This document shows positions 38,371 to 61,976 of a DNA stretch of 64,000 nucleotides, in pieces. The notes beneath the pieces are model-generated. The model did not search any database, was not told the DNA's origin, and saw nothing but the letters and a program-made list of their open reading frames with translations. The stretch is from an uncultured Lachnospiraceae bacterium (lineage in GTDB: Bacteria; Bacillota; Clostridia; Lachnospirales; Lachnospiraceae): contig CAMWXB010000002.1 of the NCBI GenBank assembly GCA_947178125.1, positions 1 through 64,000 on the forward strand, given 5' to 3'. Within the stretch, counting starts at the first letter, position 1, and each line of letters opens with the position of its first letter. The translations under genes and the position numbers were made by a program.

Positions 38371-40122
38371 ATGACGCATAAAGAAAAAGCCGTACAGCTT
38401 CTGCATCAGCAGTATCATTGCTCACAGGCACTATTCGGGGCCTTTGCGGAAGATTTCGGTCTGGATCTTAAGACCGCATTCAAGATCAGCACTTGTTTTG
38501 GCGGCGGCATGCGCCAGGGCGGAACCTGCGGCTGTATCACCGCATCTTTGCTGATACTCGGAATGGCGCTCGGCTTCTATGATTCCCAGGACCGGGAGCA
38601 GGAAATATACGGCAACAAGAAGACGGAAGAATTTATACGCCTTTTTACGGAGAAAATGAACGGCGCCGTCAACTGCCGGGATATTCTGGGCAAAGATATC
38701 TCCAAACCGGAAGAAATGGCAGTCATCCGTAAAGAAGGACTGATTCTTCAAAAATGTCCGAGGGCGTTGAGCCTCAGCATCGATATTCTGGAAGAAATGC
38801 TGGCAGAAGTGCTCAAGGACAAAACGGAAAGCGCGCTCTCTTCGGAAGATATTCCCGAGGATGACGAAATGCAGAGCATCCTGAAAGGACTTGCCAAATT
38901 AAAACACTTTCGGAGAAATATCAACAATCTTCTGTATGCCTCCGCAAAGGAGATTGCCTTCATCCAGTTCGATATTTCCAAATTTAAAATCGTCAATGAT
39001 CTATACGGTGAAAGATTCGGCGATGAAATCCTGGACTTTATCAGACGGCAGCTTTCGGAAATCTGTCGTCCCGAACAATACTTTATCAATCTGCGCAGCG
39101 ATGTCTTTATGGTCGTAACAGAATACGACAATGACGAAGAACTGATACGGTTCATCCGCCAGATAGACGAACGGATCAACTGTTTTAAAGATATTAAGCT
39201 TCACATTACCTTCGGCGTGTATACAGTAGAGGATAAGGTCGCAGAACTGCGGCAGATGGAAGACCGGGCGGCCATGGCAAGAAAAGCGGCCAAGAACAAC
39301 ATCCTGACCAATATCCTTTTTTATAAAGAGCAGTTCAAGGAAACTTTATATAACAGAAAATTTATTGAGGAAAACATGGAGACAGCCATCGAAGAAGAAC
39401 AGTTCATGATGTATCTCCAGCCCAAATACAGCATAACCAAAAATGAAATCATTGGTGCGGAAGCCCTTGTCAGATGGCGTCATCCGAAGCGCGGCATGAT
39501 CTATCCGGACCAGTTCATTCCCATCATAGAAGAGAATGGTTTCATTAAGAAAGTAGACTACTACATATGGAGAAAAGCATGTCATTTTATTAAAAAGTGT
39601 GCAGAAATCGGCATCCACTCCTGCCCCATCTCCGTTAATGTATCAAGAATCCATCTGCGCGATAATGAATGTATTCAGGTACTTTCCGATTTGATCGCAG
39701 AAAGCGGCATTTCCAAGAAGCTTCTGGAACTGGAAATCACGGAAACAGCCGATAACCAGCAGGTCAGCATGAAAGCATTTCAATTAAAAGACGAAGGCTT
39801 TACCCTGTTGATGGATGATTTCGGAAGCGGCTACTCATCTCTGAACATCCTTCTGGAAACGCCTTTTGACGTCATCAAGCTGGACCGGAAATTTATAGAG
39901 AACATGATGGTATCAGGAAAAGGAAGAATGATACTGGAGCAGGTCGTTTCCATGGCGGACAAACTGGAGCTCGGACTCCTCGCAGAAGGCGTCGAAACGA
40001 AAGACCAGATTGATCTGCTGCAGCGCATCGGCTGTGACCAGGTGCAGGGTTACTATTATGCAAAACCTATGCCGGAAGATGCTTTTTTTGAACTGCTGAA
40101 GGAACAAACTGTAAAACAATAA
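38371..40122 (+). CDS. C_GCAxxG_C_C redox domain fused to GGDEF-EAL (cyclic-di-GMP phosphodiesterase)
   Basis: A 583-residue fusion. Residues 1-135 match the C_GCAxxG_C_C family: Cys17 (HCSQAL), FGGGMRQGGTCGC (Cys53, Cys55), NCRDILG (Cys102) and KCP (Cys129). A GGDEF fold (about 185-320) has NLRSDVFMVV in place of the active site and is likely inactive. The EAL domain (about 340-575) keeps the catalytic set: EALVRW, NVSRIHL, ELEITET, DDFGSGYSSL, AEGVET and QGYYYAKP. So it probably breaks down cyclic-di-GMP, with the Cys domain possibly sensing redox state. GGAGG precedes the start. Confidence 0.9.
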   Translation: MTHKEKAVQLLHQQYHCSQALFGAFAEDFGLDLKTAFKISTCFGGGMRQGGTCGCITASLLILGMALGFYDSQDREQEIYGNKKTEEFIRLFTEKMNGAVNCRDILGKDISKPEEMAVIRKEGLILQKCPRALSLSIDILEEMLAEVLKDKTESALSSEDIPEDDEMQSILKGLAKLKHFRRNINNLLYASAKEIAFIQFDISKFKIVNDLYGERFGDEILDFIRRQLSEICRPEQYFINLRSDVFMVVTEYDNDEELIRFIRQIDERINCFKDIKLHITFGVYTVEDKVAELRQMEDRAAMARKAAKNNILTNILFYKEQFKETLYNRKFIEENMETAIEEEQFMMYLQPKYSITKNEIIGAEALVRWRHPKRGMIYPDQFIPIIEENGFIKKVDYYIWRKACHFIKKCAEIGIHSCPISVNVSRIHLRDNECIQVLSDLIAESGISKKLLELEITETADNQQVSMKAFQLKDEGFTLLMDDFGSGYSSLNILLETPFDVIKLDRKFIENMMVSGKGRMILEQVVSMADKLELGLLAEGVETKDQIDLLQRIGCDQVQGYYYAKPMPEDAFFELLKEQTVKQ

Positions 40123-40137
40123 AGAAATGTTGCCGGA

Positions 40138-40174
40138 AAATCGGCCGCACCCCCTTCGGGAATGCGGCCGATTT
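40138..40174. terminator. Hairpin between the convergent EAL and flagellin genes
   Basis: AAATCGGCCGCA and TGCGGCCGATTT make a perfect 12-bp stem. T runs on either side are short, so it is a moderate bidirectional terminator. Confidence 0.7.
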
Positions 40175-40267
40175 GGCAATACACGCTGCAATGAACTCTG
40201 AAAAAAACATATATCACGGTACTTACTTGACCATTTTCTGTACCACTGTGATTTACTGCCGGAAAGA

Positions 40268-41347
40268 TTATCCGAGCAGCGACAGCGCCAGCTGATTGCT
40301 CTGATTTGCCTGGGACAGCATGGACGTACCAGCCTGCTGCAAAATGCTGTTGTTCGAGTATTTGACCATCTCGGTAGCGATATCCGTATCACGAATCGCG
40401 GATTCAGCCGATGTGGTGTTCTCAACGATATTATCCAGGTTATTGATCGTATGTTCGAGCCTGTTCTGAATTGCACCGAGGTCGGAACGCTGCTGGGATA
40501 CTAAGGACAATGCCCCCTTGACGAATGCGTTCAGAGAGTTGAAATCCTGTGCTGTAGCAACTCTGTCAGCAGCACCGGGAACAAGTCTCATAAATGTATT
40601 CATGATCTTTATAGCCAAGTCACTATCAAGAGTTTTTGTATTATAACCAGTCGCACTGATTACCTTCCATGTCTGCACAGTTTTAGTTGATGCACTGCCG
40701 ATAATTCCCGTTGTCTTTTTATCTGCGGTTGCATCTGTTTTTCCTGTAGTCGTTACCAACTTATAAGTTGACAATGTACCCGTAACTGTACCCTCTTTCA
40801 GATTTCTAAAAGTAACCTTTGTATACAGCTTAGTGTCAATATTATTGGCAAGACCAAACATACTCATATTCGCAATACTGATATTGATATGCTGACCAGC
40901 TTCTGCTCCGACCTGAAGGCCCTTGATAAAGGAACCGTCTAACAGATTCATCTCGTTAAAGGTCGTTGTACTCTGAACACGGTCAATTTCACTCATCAGC
41001 TGTCCGATTTCAGCCTGAATGGATGCGCGGTCTGTCGTCGTAAGCGTTCCGTTCTCGCCCTTAACAGCCAGTTCGTTCATTCTCTGTAACATGTCCTGAA
41101 CTTCCGCCAATGCGCCTTCTGCTGTCTGCACGGTAGAGATACCATCCTGTGCGTTTGCAGATGCCTGTGTAAGACCTCTGATCTGACGTCTCATCTTCTC
41201 GGAAATCGCAAGACCCGCTGCATCGTCTGCTGCACGGTTGATCTTATAACCGGAAGACAGTCTCTCTGTTGATTTTGCCTGTGCACTTGTTGTAAGACCA
41301 AGCATTCTGTTAGAATTCATCGCTGTAATGTTGTGTTGTACTACCAT
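40268..41347 (-). CDS. hag: Flagellin
   Basis: A 359-residue flagellar filament protein. The N-terminal D0/D1 region (MVVQHNITAMNSNRMLG, ERLSSGYKINRAADDAAGLA) and the C-terminal one (AESAIRDTDIATEMVKYSN, LSQANQSNQLALSLLG) are conserved; the Thr-rich centre (about 180-260) is the variable surface part. AAGGAGGTAACTAT precedes the ATG, a very strong site. A sigma-28 promoter lies just upstream and csrA ends 110 bases before, as is common for hag-csrA control. Confidence 0.97.
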   Translation of the reverse strand: MVVQHNITAMNSNRMLGLTTSAQAKSTERLSSGYKINRAADDAAGLAISEKMRRQIRGLTQASANAQDGISTVQTAEGALAEVQDMLQRMNELAVKGENGTLTTTDRASIQAEIGQLMSEIDRVQSTTTFNEMNLLDGSFIKGLQVGAEAGQHINISIANMSMFGLANNIDTKLYTKVTFRNLKEGTVTGTLSTYKLVTTTGKTDATADKKTTGIIGSASTKTVQTWKVISATGYNTKTLDSDLAIKIMNTFMRLVPGAADRVATAQDFNSLNAFVKGALSLVSQQRSDLGAIQNRLEHTINNLDNIVENTTSAESAIRDTDIATEMVKYSNNSILQQAGTSMLSQANQSNQLALSLLG

Positions 41348-41383
41348 ATAGTTACCTCCTTGTTTTGTGCCGCCGCAAATCCT

Positions 41384-41410
41384 TTTACGGCATTGTTAAT
41401 TTAATTTTTA
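41384..41410 (-). promoter_or_regulatory. Sigma-28 (sigma-D) promoter of flagellin
   Basis: On the minus strand TAAA, 15 bases, GCCGTAAA; the consensus for flagellar sigma factors is TAAA-N15-GCCGATAA. It is 37 bases before the flagellin start. The same bases could pair as GCCGTAAA-AGGA-TTTGCGGC in a message read through from csrA, giving a GGA loop as CsrA prefers. A second GGA is in the ribosome binding site. Confidence 0.85.
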
Positions 41411-41457
41411 TAATAAACCCAAAGCCCCCAGGACAGCTCCGGGTCATTATCTTCTTT

Positions 41458-41748
41458 TTATCTCGTACCGGCTGCTTTTTTCGGCTTTCTCTGCGCCGCA
41501 TCGTTTACGACAATCTTCTTTTTCCGATACCGTTCCGGCAAATCCGGCACCGCCTGATAATGCGGCAATTCTGCCTTCTCTTCCGGATTCTTTACACTGT
41601 TTTCCACGACCTTGCTCCGGACAACATTCAATTCCTTCGGTATATCCAGCATGATGCGTGTGTGATTTTTACTGCCGCCGAGAAAAATGATCTTAATATC
41701 GTCGCCGATCATCAGATAATCTTCCGGCCCTACAGTCAGTCTTAACAT
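41458..41748 (-). CDS. csrA: CsrA-like translational regulator with a C-terminal extension
   Basis: A 96-residue protein. Residues 1-50 fit the CsrA fold (MLRLTVGPEDYLMIGDDIKI, then IMLDIPKELNVVRSKVVEN), with the RNA-contact Arg of the VxRxxV motif kept. The N terminus lacks the usual LSRK and the protein is about 25 residues longer than normal, with a basic tail (RYRKKKIVVNDAAQRKPKKA). GGAGG lies 7 bases before ATG 41748. It probably represses flagellin translation, by analogy with Bacillus CsrA-Hag; no fliW is in view. Confidence 0.85.
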   Translation of the reverse strand: MLRLTVGPEDYLMIGDDIKIIFLGGSKNHTRIMLDIPKELNVVRSKVVENSVKNPEEKAELPHYQAVPDLPERYRKKKIVVNDAAQRKPKKAAGTR

Positions 41749-41794
41749 AATGAAACCTCCCTGCTTTCCCCGGCTGCTCCGGGTGCTTCCCTGC

Positions 41795-41826
41795 AATGCA
41801 ACTCTTTGTATAAAAATGTTGCATTT
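41795..41826 (+). repeat. Left recombination site of the invertible segment
   Basis: A 32-bp site built as AATGCAAC, two bases, then TTTGTATAAAAATG and TTGCATTT. Arms ATGCAACTCTT and AAATGTTGCAT flank a 7-bp spacer TGTATAA. The right site at 42603-42634 is its inverted copy, with 30 of 32 bases the same. This is the normal form of a tyrosine-recombinase crossover site. It lies between csrA and the recombinase gene. Confidence 0.8.
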
Positions 41827-41906
41827 GATAATTGAAAACTTCCAATCGTCACCTGTTGTTTATCCTGTATGATCACAACAGAACAAATGTAAAGGAGAAA
41901 AAAACG

Positions 41907-42488
41907 ATGAGCGTAACTTATCCAATTAAGAACAGAAAACTGCTGGAACTATTTAAAGACTACTATGTTTCCACCAAACCCAATCCCCGCAATTACACGA
42001 TGATCGTCATGGGCCTGAACACAGCATTCAGGATTGGAGACCTTTTGCAGCTTCGATGGGACGATGTATATGATGAAAAGAAACGGGAATTTCGCAGACA
42101 CATCTGTATTACAGAACAGAAGACAGGAAAAGAACGAATTGTTGCAGTCAATCAGAACGAACAACAGGCGTTGGAACAATATTATAAAATACGCAGGCCG
42201 TCTGCACAGACAGATTATCTTTTTCAGAGCCAAAAATCAAAAGGAGCTCCGCTCTCCCGCTTTCAGGCCTATCGCATTATTAAGGAAGCCGCGAAGAACA
42301 CCGGCCTTGAAGAACATATCGGCTGCCACTCTCTCCGAAAAACTTTTGGCTATCATGCCTGGAAGCAGGGCACACAGCCAGCCATGCTGATGAATCTCTA
42401 CAACCACTCTTCCTATCAGGTGACACAGCGATATCTTGGCATCGAGCAGGACGAGCGGGATCATGTTTATCTTCATATCGAATTGTGA
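41907..42488 (+). CDS. Small tyrosine recombinase (FimB/FimE-like invertase)
   Basis: A 193-residue recombinase made only of the catalytic domain. The catalytic residues are visible: Arg in AFRIGDLLQLRW, Lys near QKTGKER, HSLRKTFGYH (HxxR), His in NHSSYQVT and the nucleophile Tyr in QRYLGI. It lacks the N-terminal core-binding domain of XerC/D, and its size matches FimB/FimE, which flip the fim promoter. AAAGGAG precedes ATG 41907. It sits inside the segment it would invert. Confidence 0.9.
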   Translation: MSVTYPIKNRKLLELFKDYYVSTKPNPRNYTMIVMGLNTAFRIGDLLQLRWDDVYDEKKREFRRHICITEQKTGKERIVAVNQNEQQALEQYYKIRRPSAQTDYLFQSQKSKGAPLSRFQAYRIIKEAAKNTGLEEHIGCHSLRKTFGYHAWKQGTQPAMLMNLYNHSSYQVTQRYLGIEQDERDHVYLHIEL

Positions 42489-42559
42489 TGTATTTCTGGC
42501 TGCTCTATGTTCTAATGGAAAAGTTTTTGAAAAAATTTGAAATTTTTTAAATTCGGCTA

Positions 42560-42586
42560 TAAAGTATCCTCAAATAGGACCGATAT
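42560..42586 (+). promoter_or_regulatory. Sigma-28-like promoter at the edge of the invertible segment
   Basis: TAAA (42560-42563), 15 bases, ACCGATAT (42579-42586), against the flagellar consensus TAAA-N15-GCCGATAT; one mismatch in twelve defined bases. It points right, towards the right recombination site 17 bases away and, beyond it, antisense into the 3' end of the dCMP deaminase gene. After inversion it would read into csrA. Confidence 0.65.
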
Positions 42587-42602
42587 ATAAAGTGTAACTA
42601 AA

Positions 42603-42634
42603 AAATGCAACATTTTTATACAAAATGTTGCATT
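42603..42634 (-). repeat. Right recombination site of the invertible segment
   Basis: Inverted copy of the site at 41795-41826. Here the arms ATGCAACATTT and AAATGTTGCAT are a perfect 11-bp pair around the spacer TTATACA, which reads TGTATAA on the minus strand. Because the arms are perfect, the region (42601-42637) would also fold as an A/T-rich hairpin followed by T, and may end the recombinase message. Confidence 0.8.
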
Positions 42635-42752
42635 TTTATTATGCCAAAAAACTTCTCAAATATACACTGGCTGAAAATATCAATGTATTAAATGTGTTAA
42701 AAGAAGAAATCAACGGCGCAGCCTGGGAAACTGCCTCAGCACAAAACAAATT

Positions 42753-43268
42753 CTATTCTCTGGATAACGGAACGGTTTCTGCGGCTTCCTTATACCATTC
42801 AAGCTCCGCCGCGGGAATCGTCAGAAAATTATCCTCACCTTCCCCCACCCGCAGAATCACATTCCGGATACCGGCCTGAATGATCATTCGGGCGCATAAA
42901 GGACAGGGCTTCGCTTTATGCACCGAACAGTCCTCCGGATTGATGCCTGCCAGATACAAATCGGCTCCAAGTGTCTGTTCTCTGGAACAGTTCAGCAGTG
43001 CATTTGCCTCCGCATGAATCGCGCGGCAGATTTCATATCCTTCTCCCTGGTGCATATTTCTGGGAATCCTTGGACATATGCCGGTATCGCAGCAATTCTC
43101 GAATCCGCGCGGTGAACCGTTATATCCTGTAGAAATGACCGCGTCATCTTTGACAATGACCGCGCCATATTTTCGTTTGATACAGGTACTCCTATATGCA
43201 AAAGCTTCCGCGCAGTTCAGATAAGTATCGCTCTTGGAAATTCTTTTATTCGCCTGTGGTTTTACCAT
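42753..43268 (-). CDS. dCMP deaminase
   Basis: A 171-residue zinc enzyme that converts dCMP to dUMP, the substrate for thymidylate synthase. Zinc motifs HAEANALLNC and CPLCARM are present, with the substrate loop TGYNGSPRGFENC. The start at 43268 (MVKPQANKRISK) lies 10 bases after GGAGG; an ATG between them is too close. ThyX, the next enzyme in the pathway, is encoded about 1.2 kb away on the same strand. Confidence 0.93.
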   Translation of the reverse strand: MVKPQANKRISKSDTYLNCAEAFAYRSTCIKRKYGAVIVKDDAVISTGYNGSPRGFENCCDTGICPRIPRNMHQGEGYEICRAIHAEANALLNCSREQTLGADLYLAGINPEDCSVHKAKPCPLCARMIIQAGIRNVILRVGEGEDNFLTIPAAELEWYKEAAETVPLSRE

Positions 43269-43348
43269 AAAAAACATGCCTCCATTTGTAACAGCACTGC
43301 CCTGCCGCCGAACTATTACTTCCATTTCAAAAACACAATAGCAAACGA

Positions 43349-43400
43349 TAGACAGATTGTCAAGTTACGCTTATAATGATAATGTCTGCCATACAGACAT
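43349..43400 (+). promoter_or_regulatory. Promoter and possible operator of yeiH
   Basis: TAGACA (43349-43354) and TATAAT (43372-43377) are 17 bases apart. Directly after comes ATGTCTG-ccata-CAGACAT (43382-43400), a perfect 7-bp inverted repeat at the expected transcription start. It may bind a regulator. Confidence 0.5.
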
Positions 43401-43428
43401 AAAATAATAAGGAGGCATTGTTATCAAA

Positions 43429-44466
43429 ATGAAATTTTTAGAAAAAAACTGGAAAGGAATCCTGCTCTGTCTGGCTATCTCAATACCCTCATGGTTCCTC
43501 GGAAAACAGTTCCCCATCATCGGCGGCGCTGTCATCGCCATTATCGCCGGCATGGTCATCACACTATTCATTAAAAACAAAACGCCCTTCGAACAGGGCA
43601 TCAAATTTACTTCCAAAAAAGTATTACAATGGGCTGTCATCCTGCTGGGTTTCGGCATGAACCTGACCGTTATCTTACAGACCGGAAAACAATCGCTGCC
43701 CATTATCATCAGCACGATTGCAGCTTCCCTCGTTATCGCATACGTTTTACATAAGGCAATGCACATTCCGGGTAAGATTTCCACACTGGTAGGCGTAGGC
43801 TCTTCTATCTGCGGCGGTTCCGCCATCGCGGCAACTGCTCCCGTCATCGACGCGGACGATGAAGAAGTCGCACAGGCCATTTCCGTTATCTTTTTCTTCA
43901 ACGTACTGGCGGCATTACTTTTCCCGACCTTCGGAAAACTGGTCGGCTTTGCCACCAATACGGGAGAAGCATTCGGCATCTTTGCCGGAACGGCCGTAAA
44001 CGACACCTCTTCCGTTACGGCGGCGGCTTCTACCTGGGACAGCATGTGGGGACTCGGCTCTGCGACACTCGACACTGCAGTCACCGTTAAGCTTACCCGT
44101 ACCCTCGCCATCATCCCGATCACCCTCGTGCTTGCCATGCTCCGCACAAGAAAGGAAAAACAAAGCGGCGAGGAAGGAAAAAAGGTCAGCTTAAAACAGA
44201 TATTCCCCTTTTTCATCCTCTACTTCATCGCTGCCTCCATCATTACCACCATCGCGGTCTCCGCAGGCGTAGATGCGGGCATATTCAATCCGGTAAAGGA
44301 ACTGAGCAAATTCTTTATCATCCTCGCCATGAGCGCCATTGGTTTAAATACCGATATCGTCAAACTGATCAAAACGGGCGGAAAGCCGATTGTCATGGGC
44401 TTTTGCTGCTGGGTAGGCATCACCGGCGTCAGTCTGCTGATGCAGCACCTGCTCGGAATATGGTAA
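43429..44466 (+). CDS. yeiH: YeiH-family putative sulfate exporter
   Basis: A 345-residue inner-membrane protein of the UPF0324/YeiH family (PF03601), with about ten membrane segments. Family-typical stretches are [19 protein letters not shown] and [15 protein letters not shown]. In other bacteria members are linked to sulfur-compound export, but the substrate here is not shown by the sequence. The spacing between GGAGG and ATG 43429 is unusually long (13 bases). Confidence 0.88.
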
Positions 44467-61087: not shown

Positions 61088-61117
61088 AAAAGGCTCATCC
61101 TCTTGGATGGGCCTTTA
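61088..61117 (-). terminator. Terminator overlapping the xerD stop codon
   Basis: On the minus strand AAAGGCCCATCC pairs with GGATGAGCCTTT and TTGATTTG follows. The stem contains the final codons and the TGA of xerD. The convergent aroF message may also end here. Confidence 0.7.
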
Positions 61118-61976
61118 CATATACTTCTCTGATGTGGTTGTGGTTCAAATGGGCATAAATCTGGGTTGTCGAAATATCCGAATGCCCCAGCATTTCCTGT
61201 ACGCTTTTTAAATCGGCCCCGTTCTCCACAAGATGCGCGGCAAACGAATGACGCAGCGTATGCGGTGTAATATCCGCTTTTATATCCGCCTTCTGGGCAT
61301 AGTACTTGATCAACTTCCAAAATCCCTGTCTGCTCATAGGCTGGCCGGAGCAGTTCGCAAATAAAATGTCCGACTTCTTATCCTCTATCATGGAATCCCT
61401 GACCCCGTCAAGATATCTGTCCAGCGCTTTTTTCGCCGCACCGCCAAACGGGATGATTCGCTCTTTTCCCGCATGGCAGATTAAAAAATTCATCTGCAGA
61501 TTGATATCCGAAATTTTTAATGTGATCAGCTCGGATACGCGGATTCCTGTCGCATATAAAAGTTCCAGCATCGCCTTATCCCGAATCTCTTTGGGAGAAT
61601 CGCCGTTTGGCTGTTCCAAAAGCCGCACCACCTCTTCGGGCGACATCACTTCCGGCATCTTCTTCTCTATTTTGGGTGCCTTCAGATTCCCGGATACATC
61701 CTTTTTCACGATTCCCTCGCGTAATAAAAAATGATAGAAAGCCTTGATGGATGCAACATTTCTGGATATTGTGGCCGTTGCGAAATGATTATCCTCCAGG
61801 TATTGTATATACCCGTCCAAAGCTTCTTCCGTCACATCTTCGACATTCTGAATACCTTTTTGCACCATAAAGTGCTCCATTTTCTCCAAATCCCTTTTAT
61901 ATGACATCTCCGTATTGTTTGAAGTTTTCTTTATGTTATGTAAATAAGATATAAATGCCGTAATTTCTTTTTCCAT
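61095..61976 (-). CDS. xerD: Tyrosine recombinase XerD
   Basis: A 293-residue site-specific recombinase that resolves chromosome dimers at dif. It has a SAM-like core-binding domain (1-95) and a catalytic domain with ATGIRVSELI (Arg), HAGKERIIP (Lys), HTLRHSFAAH (HxxR), GHSDISTTQIYAH (His and Tyr). The length is standard for XerD. It carries its own TTGCTT-N17-TATAAT promoter. Confidence 0.94.
   Translation of the reverse strand: MEKEITAFISYLHNIKKTSNNTEMSYKRDLEKMEHFMVQKGIQNVEDVTEEALDGYIQYLEDNHFATATISRNVASIKAFYHFLLREGIVKKDVSGNLKAPKIEKKMPEVMSPEEVVRLLEQPNGDSPKEIRDKAMLELLYATGIRVSELITLKISDINLQMNFLICHAGKERIIPFGGAAKKALDRYLDGVRDSMIEDKKSDILFANCSGQPMSRQGFWKLIKYYAQKADIKADITPHTLRHSFAAHLVENGADLKSVQEMLGHSDISTTQIYAHLNHNHIREVYVKAHPRG

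Follow-up and report, generated by a model that had tools for sequence, protein, structure and literature searches.

A probable self-contained invertible cassette, with its own tyrosine recombinase and a flagellar promoter, beside csrA and a second flagellin gene in a Lachnospiraceae bacterium

Background

The Hin/H segment of Salmonella (fljBA, fliC) is an invertible segment that has its own recombinase and an outward flagellin promoter, and hin sits within the inverted DNA, according to PMC2784873. The Salmonella promoter reads a second flagellin gene and a post-transcriptional regulator of flagellin, and the other flagellin has a fixed promoter. In gut Firmicutes, a Hin-type inversion of a FliA promoter beside csrA has already been published for Flavonifractor plautii, and at hin-associated csrA-tldR loci CsrA was found enriched on the 5' UTR of the alternative fliC, with a stem-loop motif (PMC13418256). 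In E. coli fimS, a small catalytic-only tyrosine recombinase works with inverted repeats and a promoter in the segment (PMC2784873). Recombinase-driven inversion in Clostridia is known from the RecV switches of C. difficile (cwpV, flg), RecV being a tyrosine recombinase (PMC2784873 and PMC7446863).

The locus analysed here lies in a 64,000-nucleotide stretch of DNA from an uncultured Lachnospiraceae bacterium, and this whole stretch is called the window. As in the Hin type of working, a recombinase gene and an outward flagellin promoter both lie inside a segment bounded by repeats, and the promoter would read a second flagellin gene and a regulator. Unlike Hin, the recombinase is of the tyrosine and not the serine type and the sites are others; the regulator is a CsrA paralogue and not FljA, its gene precedes that of the flagellin, and there is an orientation-specific hairpin at the distal site. 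That such a Hin-like layout has been built from a recombinase unrelated to Hin is a clear example of convergence. The csrA-tldR loci are alike in having an invertible FliA-dependent promoter by csrA and flagellin genes in gut Clostridia but differ in their serine recombinase, in an inversion of ~120 bp that lies downstream of hin and does not contain it, and in the RNA-guided TldR (PMC13418256). In fimS, FimB and FimE are encoded beside the segment, not inside it. The C. difficile switches, likened here by description, differ in that recV is not near cwpV, RecV serves several switches and the cwpV promoter is outside the segment. We found no description of a tyrosine-recombinase csrA-hag cassette in the open-access literature, as far as its accessible text goes, and a 2019 survey of invertible promoters in the gut may already list some of these segments.

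Results and Discussion

Anatomy of the locus

The features of the locus, in positions of the window, are as follows.

41795..41826, plus strand: csrA-side recombination site, with TGTTGCA as its inner half and an imperfect outer half (TGCAACTCT)
41907..42488, plus strand: tyrosine recombinase gene, 193 aa, catalytic domain only
42560..42586, plus strand: sigma-28/sigmaD promoter TAAA-N15-ACCGATAT, at present directed away from csrA-hag
42603..42634, minus strand: distal recombination site, a perfect palindrome
42601..42637, plus strand: hairpin, proposed OFF-state terminator; 16-bp stem, 5-nt loop, A tract 5' and T tract within and after the stem
41458..41748, minus strand: csrA2, divergent CsrA paralogue of 96 aa with an extended C-terminus
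41371..41392, minus strand: CsrA-type stem-loop with GGA in the loop, in the hag2 leader
40268..41347, minus strand: hag2, the second flagellin gene, for which a separate sigmaD-like promoter was not found
42753..43325, minus strand: dCMP/cytidine deaminase-like gene, distal-side flank, outside the cassette

An earlier note on this DNA had proposed a pair of inverted 32-bp sites identical at 30 of 32 positions, a catalytic-only tyrosine recombinase of 193 residues as the one gene between them, and an outward sigma-28-type promoter at the right edge. All three were confirmed: the sites at 41795-41826 and 42603-42634, PF00589 as the only Pfam family in the protein, and TAAA-N15-ACCGATAT at 42560-42586 on the plus strand. 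The sites enclose a segment of 776 bp that holds the recombinase gene and the outward sigmaD promoter. Two details needed correction. The 11-bp arms ascribed to both sites hold for the right site, which is a perfect palindrome, but the outer arm of the left site is imperfect (AATGCAACTCT), and this asymmetry turns out to matter through the hairpin described below. The distance of 78 bases from the csrA start to the left site is true when measured to the inner edge of that site, whereas the outer edge is 46 nt away.

The recombination sites

The assembly (4.14 Mb, 131 contigs, 93% complete) was scanned for the site core. With up to 3 mismatches there were two matches in the whole assembly, both at the cassette, and none with the reversed control. 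With 600 bp searched to the left and right of the recombinase, an inverted repeat scoring at least 17 was present in 67 of 83 csrA-linked loci, one of the 84 having been dropped for its short flank, and so the sites are conserved alongside the recombinase as the earlier note had expected. When the right-hand window was shifted by 1.2 kb, 2 of 48 loci still gave a repeat (L066 and L109, which are real cassettes with long segments), and viral relatives gave 0 of 79. The site-core scan together with the viral and shifted controls rules out chance repeats. The arms TGCAAC..GTTGCA are common to many loci, and a divergent subtype (L102, L111, L113) has other arms (GTAACA..). The central 7 bases were equal in both sites of a locus in 75 of 79 cases and between loci in 2.8%, there being 42 versions. 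Central bases that match within a locus and vary between loci are the signature of strand exchange by homology, in which a matching overlap is needed.

The recombinase and its descent

The 193-aa protein matched PF00589 over residues 27-177 at 101 bits (cut-off 27.1) and is thus a member of the tyrosine recombinases; among the Pfam matches no other family was listed, so that it falls outside the serine recombinases of the Hin type. The residues R42, K72, H141, R144, H167 and Y176, which we take to be catalytic, were invariant in all 30 aligned members. Since the csrA-side site ends 80 nt upstream of the open reading frame, there is no room for a core-binding domain. The likeness to FimB that the earlier note had drawn is valid for size and chemistry but does not extend to descent: identity is 30% over 159 positions to FimB and 28% over 155 positions to FimE, and a grouping with these two was rejected because the tree puts FimB and FimE on a separate long branch (100/100). 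A FimB/FimE-type assignment was likewise rejected with the NCBIfam models PRK09871 and PRK09870, both of them models of tyrosine-type DNA invertases, where the scores of 61.2 and 51.9 bits were below the cut-offs of 222 and 221. In the same tree, the 56 csrA-linked representatives and 20 other rows formed one branch of 76 rows (100/100), far from FimB and FimE, which comprises switch representatives, a sugar-locus class, a single viral sequence and orphans.

Phages and plasmids often carry relatives of the recombinase. Plasmids searched with the DNA of the locus gave no match, and neither did a scan of viral contigs with the Roseburia faecis recombinase as query; scanning viral contigs with the recombinase alignment gave phage relatives of ~37-45% identity, and the 79 that were usable had no flanking repeats. 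Contig C63 of this genome has another recombinase (L002/L134), 39% identical, which grouped with the viral relatives in the tree; no flanking repeat was found around it, its upstream sequence being only ~780 nt. The window itself holds a second tyrosine recombinase at 61116-61583 (open frame 302 aa), 28% identical to that of the cassette. Two human fecal 'Bacteriophage sp.' records, L136 and L137 (MT837633, MT837916), have the recombinase adjoining csrA, L137 also with hag, and look like bacterial contigs.

Distribution among relatives

The recombinase had a match at E <=1e-20 in 40 of 77 same-genus genomes, its own genome included, and in two of these 40 the match was only of a class 46-48% identical. 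Within the genus, 49 of 57 recombinase places were at most 1.7 kb from a divergent csrA, and the other eight were six of the 46-48% class elsewhere, one fragment and the C63 paralogue. Conversely, 7 of 56 csrA2-like genes were more than 1.7 kb from a recombinase: one in G076, which has no recombinase, and six extra copies in G001, G065, G069 and G072. Counted by genome, 38 had both recombinase and csrA2, 2 the recombinase only, 1 csrA2 only and 36 neither (p 2e-18, uncorrected for kinship). In a scan of named genomes 142 relatives were obtained, and the best 80 of these 142, which were examined, were mostly Lachnospiraceae by record title. Cultured commensals are among the carriers of the cassette: Bacterium 0.1xD8-71 (L046), Eubacterium sp. 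14-2 (L090), Lachnospiraceae bacterium 3-1 (L110) and Roseburia faecis M72 (L056). After identical recombinase genes were removed there were 95 loci, 84 of them with csrA beside the recombinase. As only loci with exactly the same recombinase DNA were merged, near copies such as L091/L095 remain in the counts.

Homologues at other loci were without a recognisable site pair in L055, L065, L075, L076, L087, L092 and L100, and one site was visible in L059. Those of L055, L065 and L076, which are Eubacterium-labelled, lie by the ATP synthase operon, where no repeat or csrA was found, and are possibly stand-alone enzymes.

Promoter and orientation

The perfect pattern TAAA-N16-CCGATAT has 14 matches in 4.14 Mb, the cassette promoter among them, and 3 when it is reversed. 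A FliA/WhiG sigma factor is encoded in the same genome (266 bits, cut-off 189.6). Of the 95 loci, the 87 that have csrA or hag were used to count orientation, and 8 of these gave no site pair. The earlier note had looked to related genomes for the opposite orientation, and it was found there: of the 79 loci in which the site pair could be resolved, the promoter pointed away from csrA-hag (OFF) in 70 and towards it (ON) in 6, and no promoter was found in 3. By a stricter rule, an outward sigmaD-like match with at most one mismatch ended 14-24 nt (median 20) from the site edge in 76 of 79, and inward sigmaD-like matches at the segment ends of these 79 loci numbered zero. In L066, L086, L089 and L093 the first promoter match was intragenic; the stricter scan gives a match at the end of the segment and the states are unchanged. 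L085 is scored as OFF with respect to its left flagellin, from which the promoter points away; there it is aimed at a second flagellin. Outside the counts stand L030 and L056, with sites recognised by eye, and L063 and L109, with long segments; all four are OFF. In L063 and L109 the distal site is 1.7-1.9 kb past the recombinase gene and an outward sigmaD match is present. No site pair was found in L064, L070, L081 and L083, and in L064 and L070 the recombinase is near csrA nonetheless. The recombinase gene is directed away from csrA in 79 of 84 loci and towards it in 5. In the divergent subtype the promoter is at the other segment end, divergent from the recombinase, with two loci ON and one OFF.

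Eight pairs were aligned, and in seven of them the segment matched in the orientation opposite to that of the csrA/hag flank; this is inversion between related species. In six of these pairs (L061 with L068, L069, L072 and L074, L106 with L099, and L102 with L111) the matching stretches stop at the sites or no more than ~60 nt from them, and the clearest, with boundaries at the sites, are L061 with L072 and L074, L106 with L099, and L102 with L111. L067/L094 is an inverted pair in which the hag flank alone aligned, and in the eighth pair, L067/L092, the alignment was confined to the recombinase gene. The recombinases of the closest opposite-orientation pair are ~85% identical. Some contigs end close to the segment, which could hint at mixed orientations, but this evidence was too weak to be used. 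Site conservation, the two orientations and the inverted relatives support the proposal of the earlier note that a flip would aim the promoter at csrA-hag, and its view that the present orientation is OFF for this promoter is likewise supported. The great excess of OFF over ON means that flipping may be rare in some copies.

The switched genes

The genome has eight PF00669 matches, one of them FlgL-like by eye. On contig C3 there are fliW, a canonical csrA of 72 aa and hag1, which has its own perfect sigmaD promoter. Hag1 and Hag2 have 309 residues in common of 354/359, the differences lying mostly in the middle. On the csrA2-hag2 strand, a search of a 3.4-kb stretch (L116) that allowed 2 mismatches gave no sigmaD-like promoter, and a sigma-70 scan of 41300-42600 listed none. 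CsrA2 belongs to the CsrA family (PF02599, 53.5 bits, cut-off 27), and since its scores of 29.8 and 25.1 with the NCBIfam CsrA equivalogs are below the cut-offs of 73 and 70.1, it is a divergent paralogue. A hag gene is downstream of csrA2 in 78 of 84 loci; in the six where hag was not found, L056 and L111 have other genes, L029 has masked bases, and L022, L082 and L101 are on short contigs. At L056:4567-4866, in Roseburia faecis M72, csrA2 has no flagellin behind it, and the switch there would control the regulator alone. A stem-loop with GGA in the loop and a stem of at least 6 is present in 69 of 78 hag2 leaders, against 1.3% of shuffles, and the stems vary in sequence with the pairing kept. 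By eye, GGA stem-loops are also in hag1 here and in three sigmaD-preceded hag genes of other genomes. We infer that CsrA2 would act on hag mRNA. As the switched flagellin is a second copy beside one with a fixed promoter, variation of flagellin is more likely than loss of flagella.

A direction-specific hairpin

When the sequence was folded in the outward direction of the promoter, the distal-flank junction was more stable than the csrA-flank junction in all 76 loci (median -17.7 against -9.3 kcal/mol), and the next 8 nt were richer in U at the distal-flank junction in 75 of 76. All six ON loci keep this preference: the best partner of their promoter end is the distal flank, although in their present state it lies at the opposite end of the segment. 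The pairing goes beyond the sites: promoter end and distal flank paired at 7.63 of 10 positions, against 6.66 with the flanks dealt among the loci, and 0 of 2000 permutations were as good (also 0 of 2000 with 56 and with 36 representatives). For the other three combinations of end and flank the full set gave 567, 161 and 1091 of 2000, and the lowest value in a subset was 65 of 2000, for the recombinase-start end with the csrA flank. In L102, L111 and L113 the difference in hairpin energy tracks the promoter end and not the recombinase end. The distal site and its flank are therefore probably an orientation-specific terminator or insulator, predicted to form only in OFF. For C. difficile cwpV, a terminator at a repeat junction has been proposed for OFF only (PMC2784873 and PMC7446863). 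The hairpin has few G-C pairs, a simple terminator scanner did not list it, and in L079, L091 and L095 the longest stems are without a U tract after them, so that we infer rather than observe termination. A search of 40000-43500 against Rfam at gathering thresholds gave no match. The earlier note had the OFF promoter reading antisense into the dCMP deaminase gene; the direction is as it said, but the transcript probably stops short of going far into that gene because the hairpin is in its path.

Proposed mechanism and alternative explanations

Very probably, the locus is a self-contained invertible cassette that flips a sigmaD promoter for csrA2-hag2. The recombinase would act on the two palindromic-armed sites, exchanging their matched central bases, and the 776-bp segment, with recombinase gene and outward promoter inside, would flip. 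In ON the promoter would read csrA2-hag2, giving the second flagellin and the CsrA paralogue; in OFF, the present state, it would fire into the hairpin made by its own segment end and the distal flank, and the transcript would probably be terminated. This reading draws on the anatomy of the locus, its conservation, the two orientations, the inversion between the sites in relatives, the asymmetry of the hairpin and the separate promoter of hag1. On this DNA evidence, it is most likely that the cassette turns a spare flagellin gene and a regulator on and off, and flipping would take place in this strain with the cassette recombinase as catalyst.

If the segment were instead a small mobile element inserted upstream of csrA, which moves and does not flip in place, it would fit that recombinase relatives are common in phages and plasmids and that the central site bases differ between loci as target sites do. 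Against it, the assembly has no second copy of the sites and 49 of 57 recombinase places in the genus are beside csrA2; moreover, 76 of 79 loci have an outward sigmaD promoter, and ON and OFF relatives have common flanks with the segment alone inverted. We consider this explanation very improbable. Somewhat less remote, but still unlikely, is that the cassette is an inherited relic, with a segment that once flipped but is now essentially locked OFF in this strain and with hag2 silent. The 70 OFF loci among 79, and L064 and L070, whose csrA-linked recombinases are without a recognisable site pair, speak for such decay; against it, the catalytic residues, the matched central bases, the promoter consensus and the csrA2 and hag2 frames are intact here, and the ON loci are scattered over the recombinase tree, only L111 and L113 being together in one small clade.

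The role of the hairpin is a separate matter. It could be a site made palindromic by hairpin template switching, or a terminator of the recombinase gene, and not an OFF-state terminator, and its weak G-C content, its absence from the scanner's list and the long perfect stems without U tract in L079, L091 and L095 would agree with that. Template switching should hit both junctions, however, and clear covariation is seen only between promoter end and distal flank; in the divergent subtype the energy difference follows the promoter end and not the recombinase end, and loci in the ON state have retained the extended pairing. These explanations of the hairpin are the less likely ones, though they deserve clearly more weight than the two above. 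The preferred reading of the locus is still the flipping cassette.

Related cassettes and unusual loci

Five loci (L128, L129, L131, L132 and L133) have a related recombinase class, ~45-49% identical, with a different flanking inverted repeat that carries AAATGTTATCTT at its inner end, or AAATGTTTTCTT in L129. By eye their neighbours look like genes for surface sugars, among them glycosyltransferase and NeuB-like ones; those that flank the segment are divergent in four loci and in the same direction in L133, and no sigmaD match was found inside the segment in any of the five. The cassette has probably been put to a second use in this class. The related L130 has no repeat. At L085:4350-6310 the segment lies between two outward flagellin genes whose leaders and N-termini form an inverted, near-identical stretch of 288 bp, and a two-way alternation of flagellins is possible there. 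Segments of 1.8-2.6 kb with extra sequence inside occur at L112:5600-6650, L066:5823-6872, L063:4943-7495 and L109:633-2969, and by eye L112 encodes a choloylglycine-hydrolase-like protein there and L066 an Rpn/transposase-like one.

Conclusions

Lachnospiraceae flagellins are major immune antigens of the gut. A broader reading, which we offer tentatively as a real possibility, is that there is a portable family of self-flipping cassettes in which one element is both site and one-orientation terminator; that it gives the Lachnospiraceae an antigenic switch between two flagellins independent of that of Salmonella, in which a co-switched CsrA paralogue represses the fixed flagellin; and that the same lineage flips promoters of surface-sugar genes (L128, L129, L131-L133). 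A recombination site that doubles as an orientation-specific terminator would be a simple and testable design. A promoter flip in dozens of genomes would explain differences in flagellin version from cell to cell, and flagellin expression in the gut would become readable from the orientation of the DNA in metagenomes.
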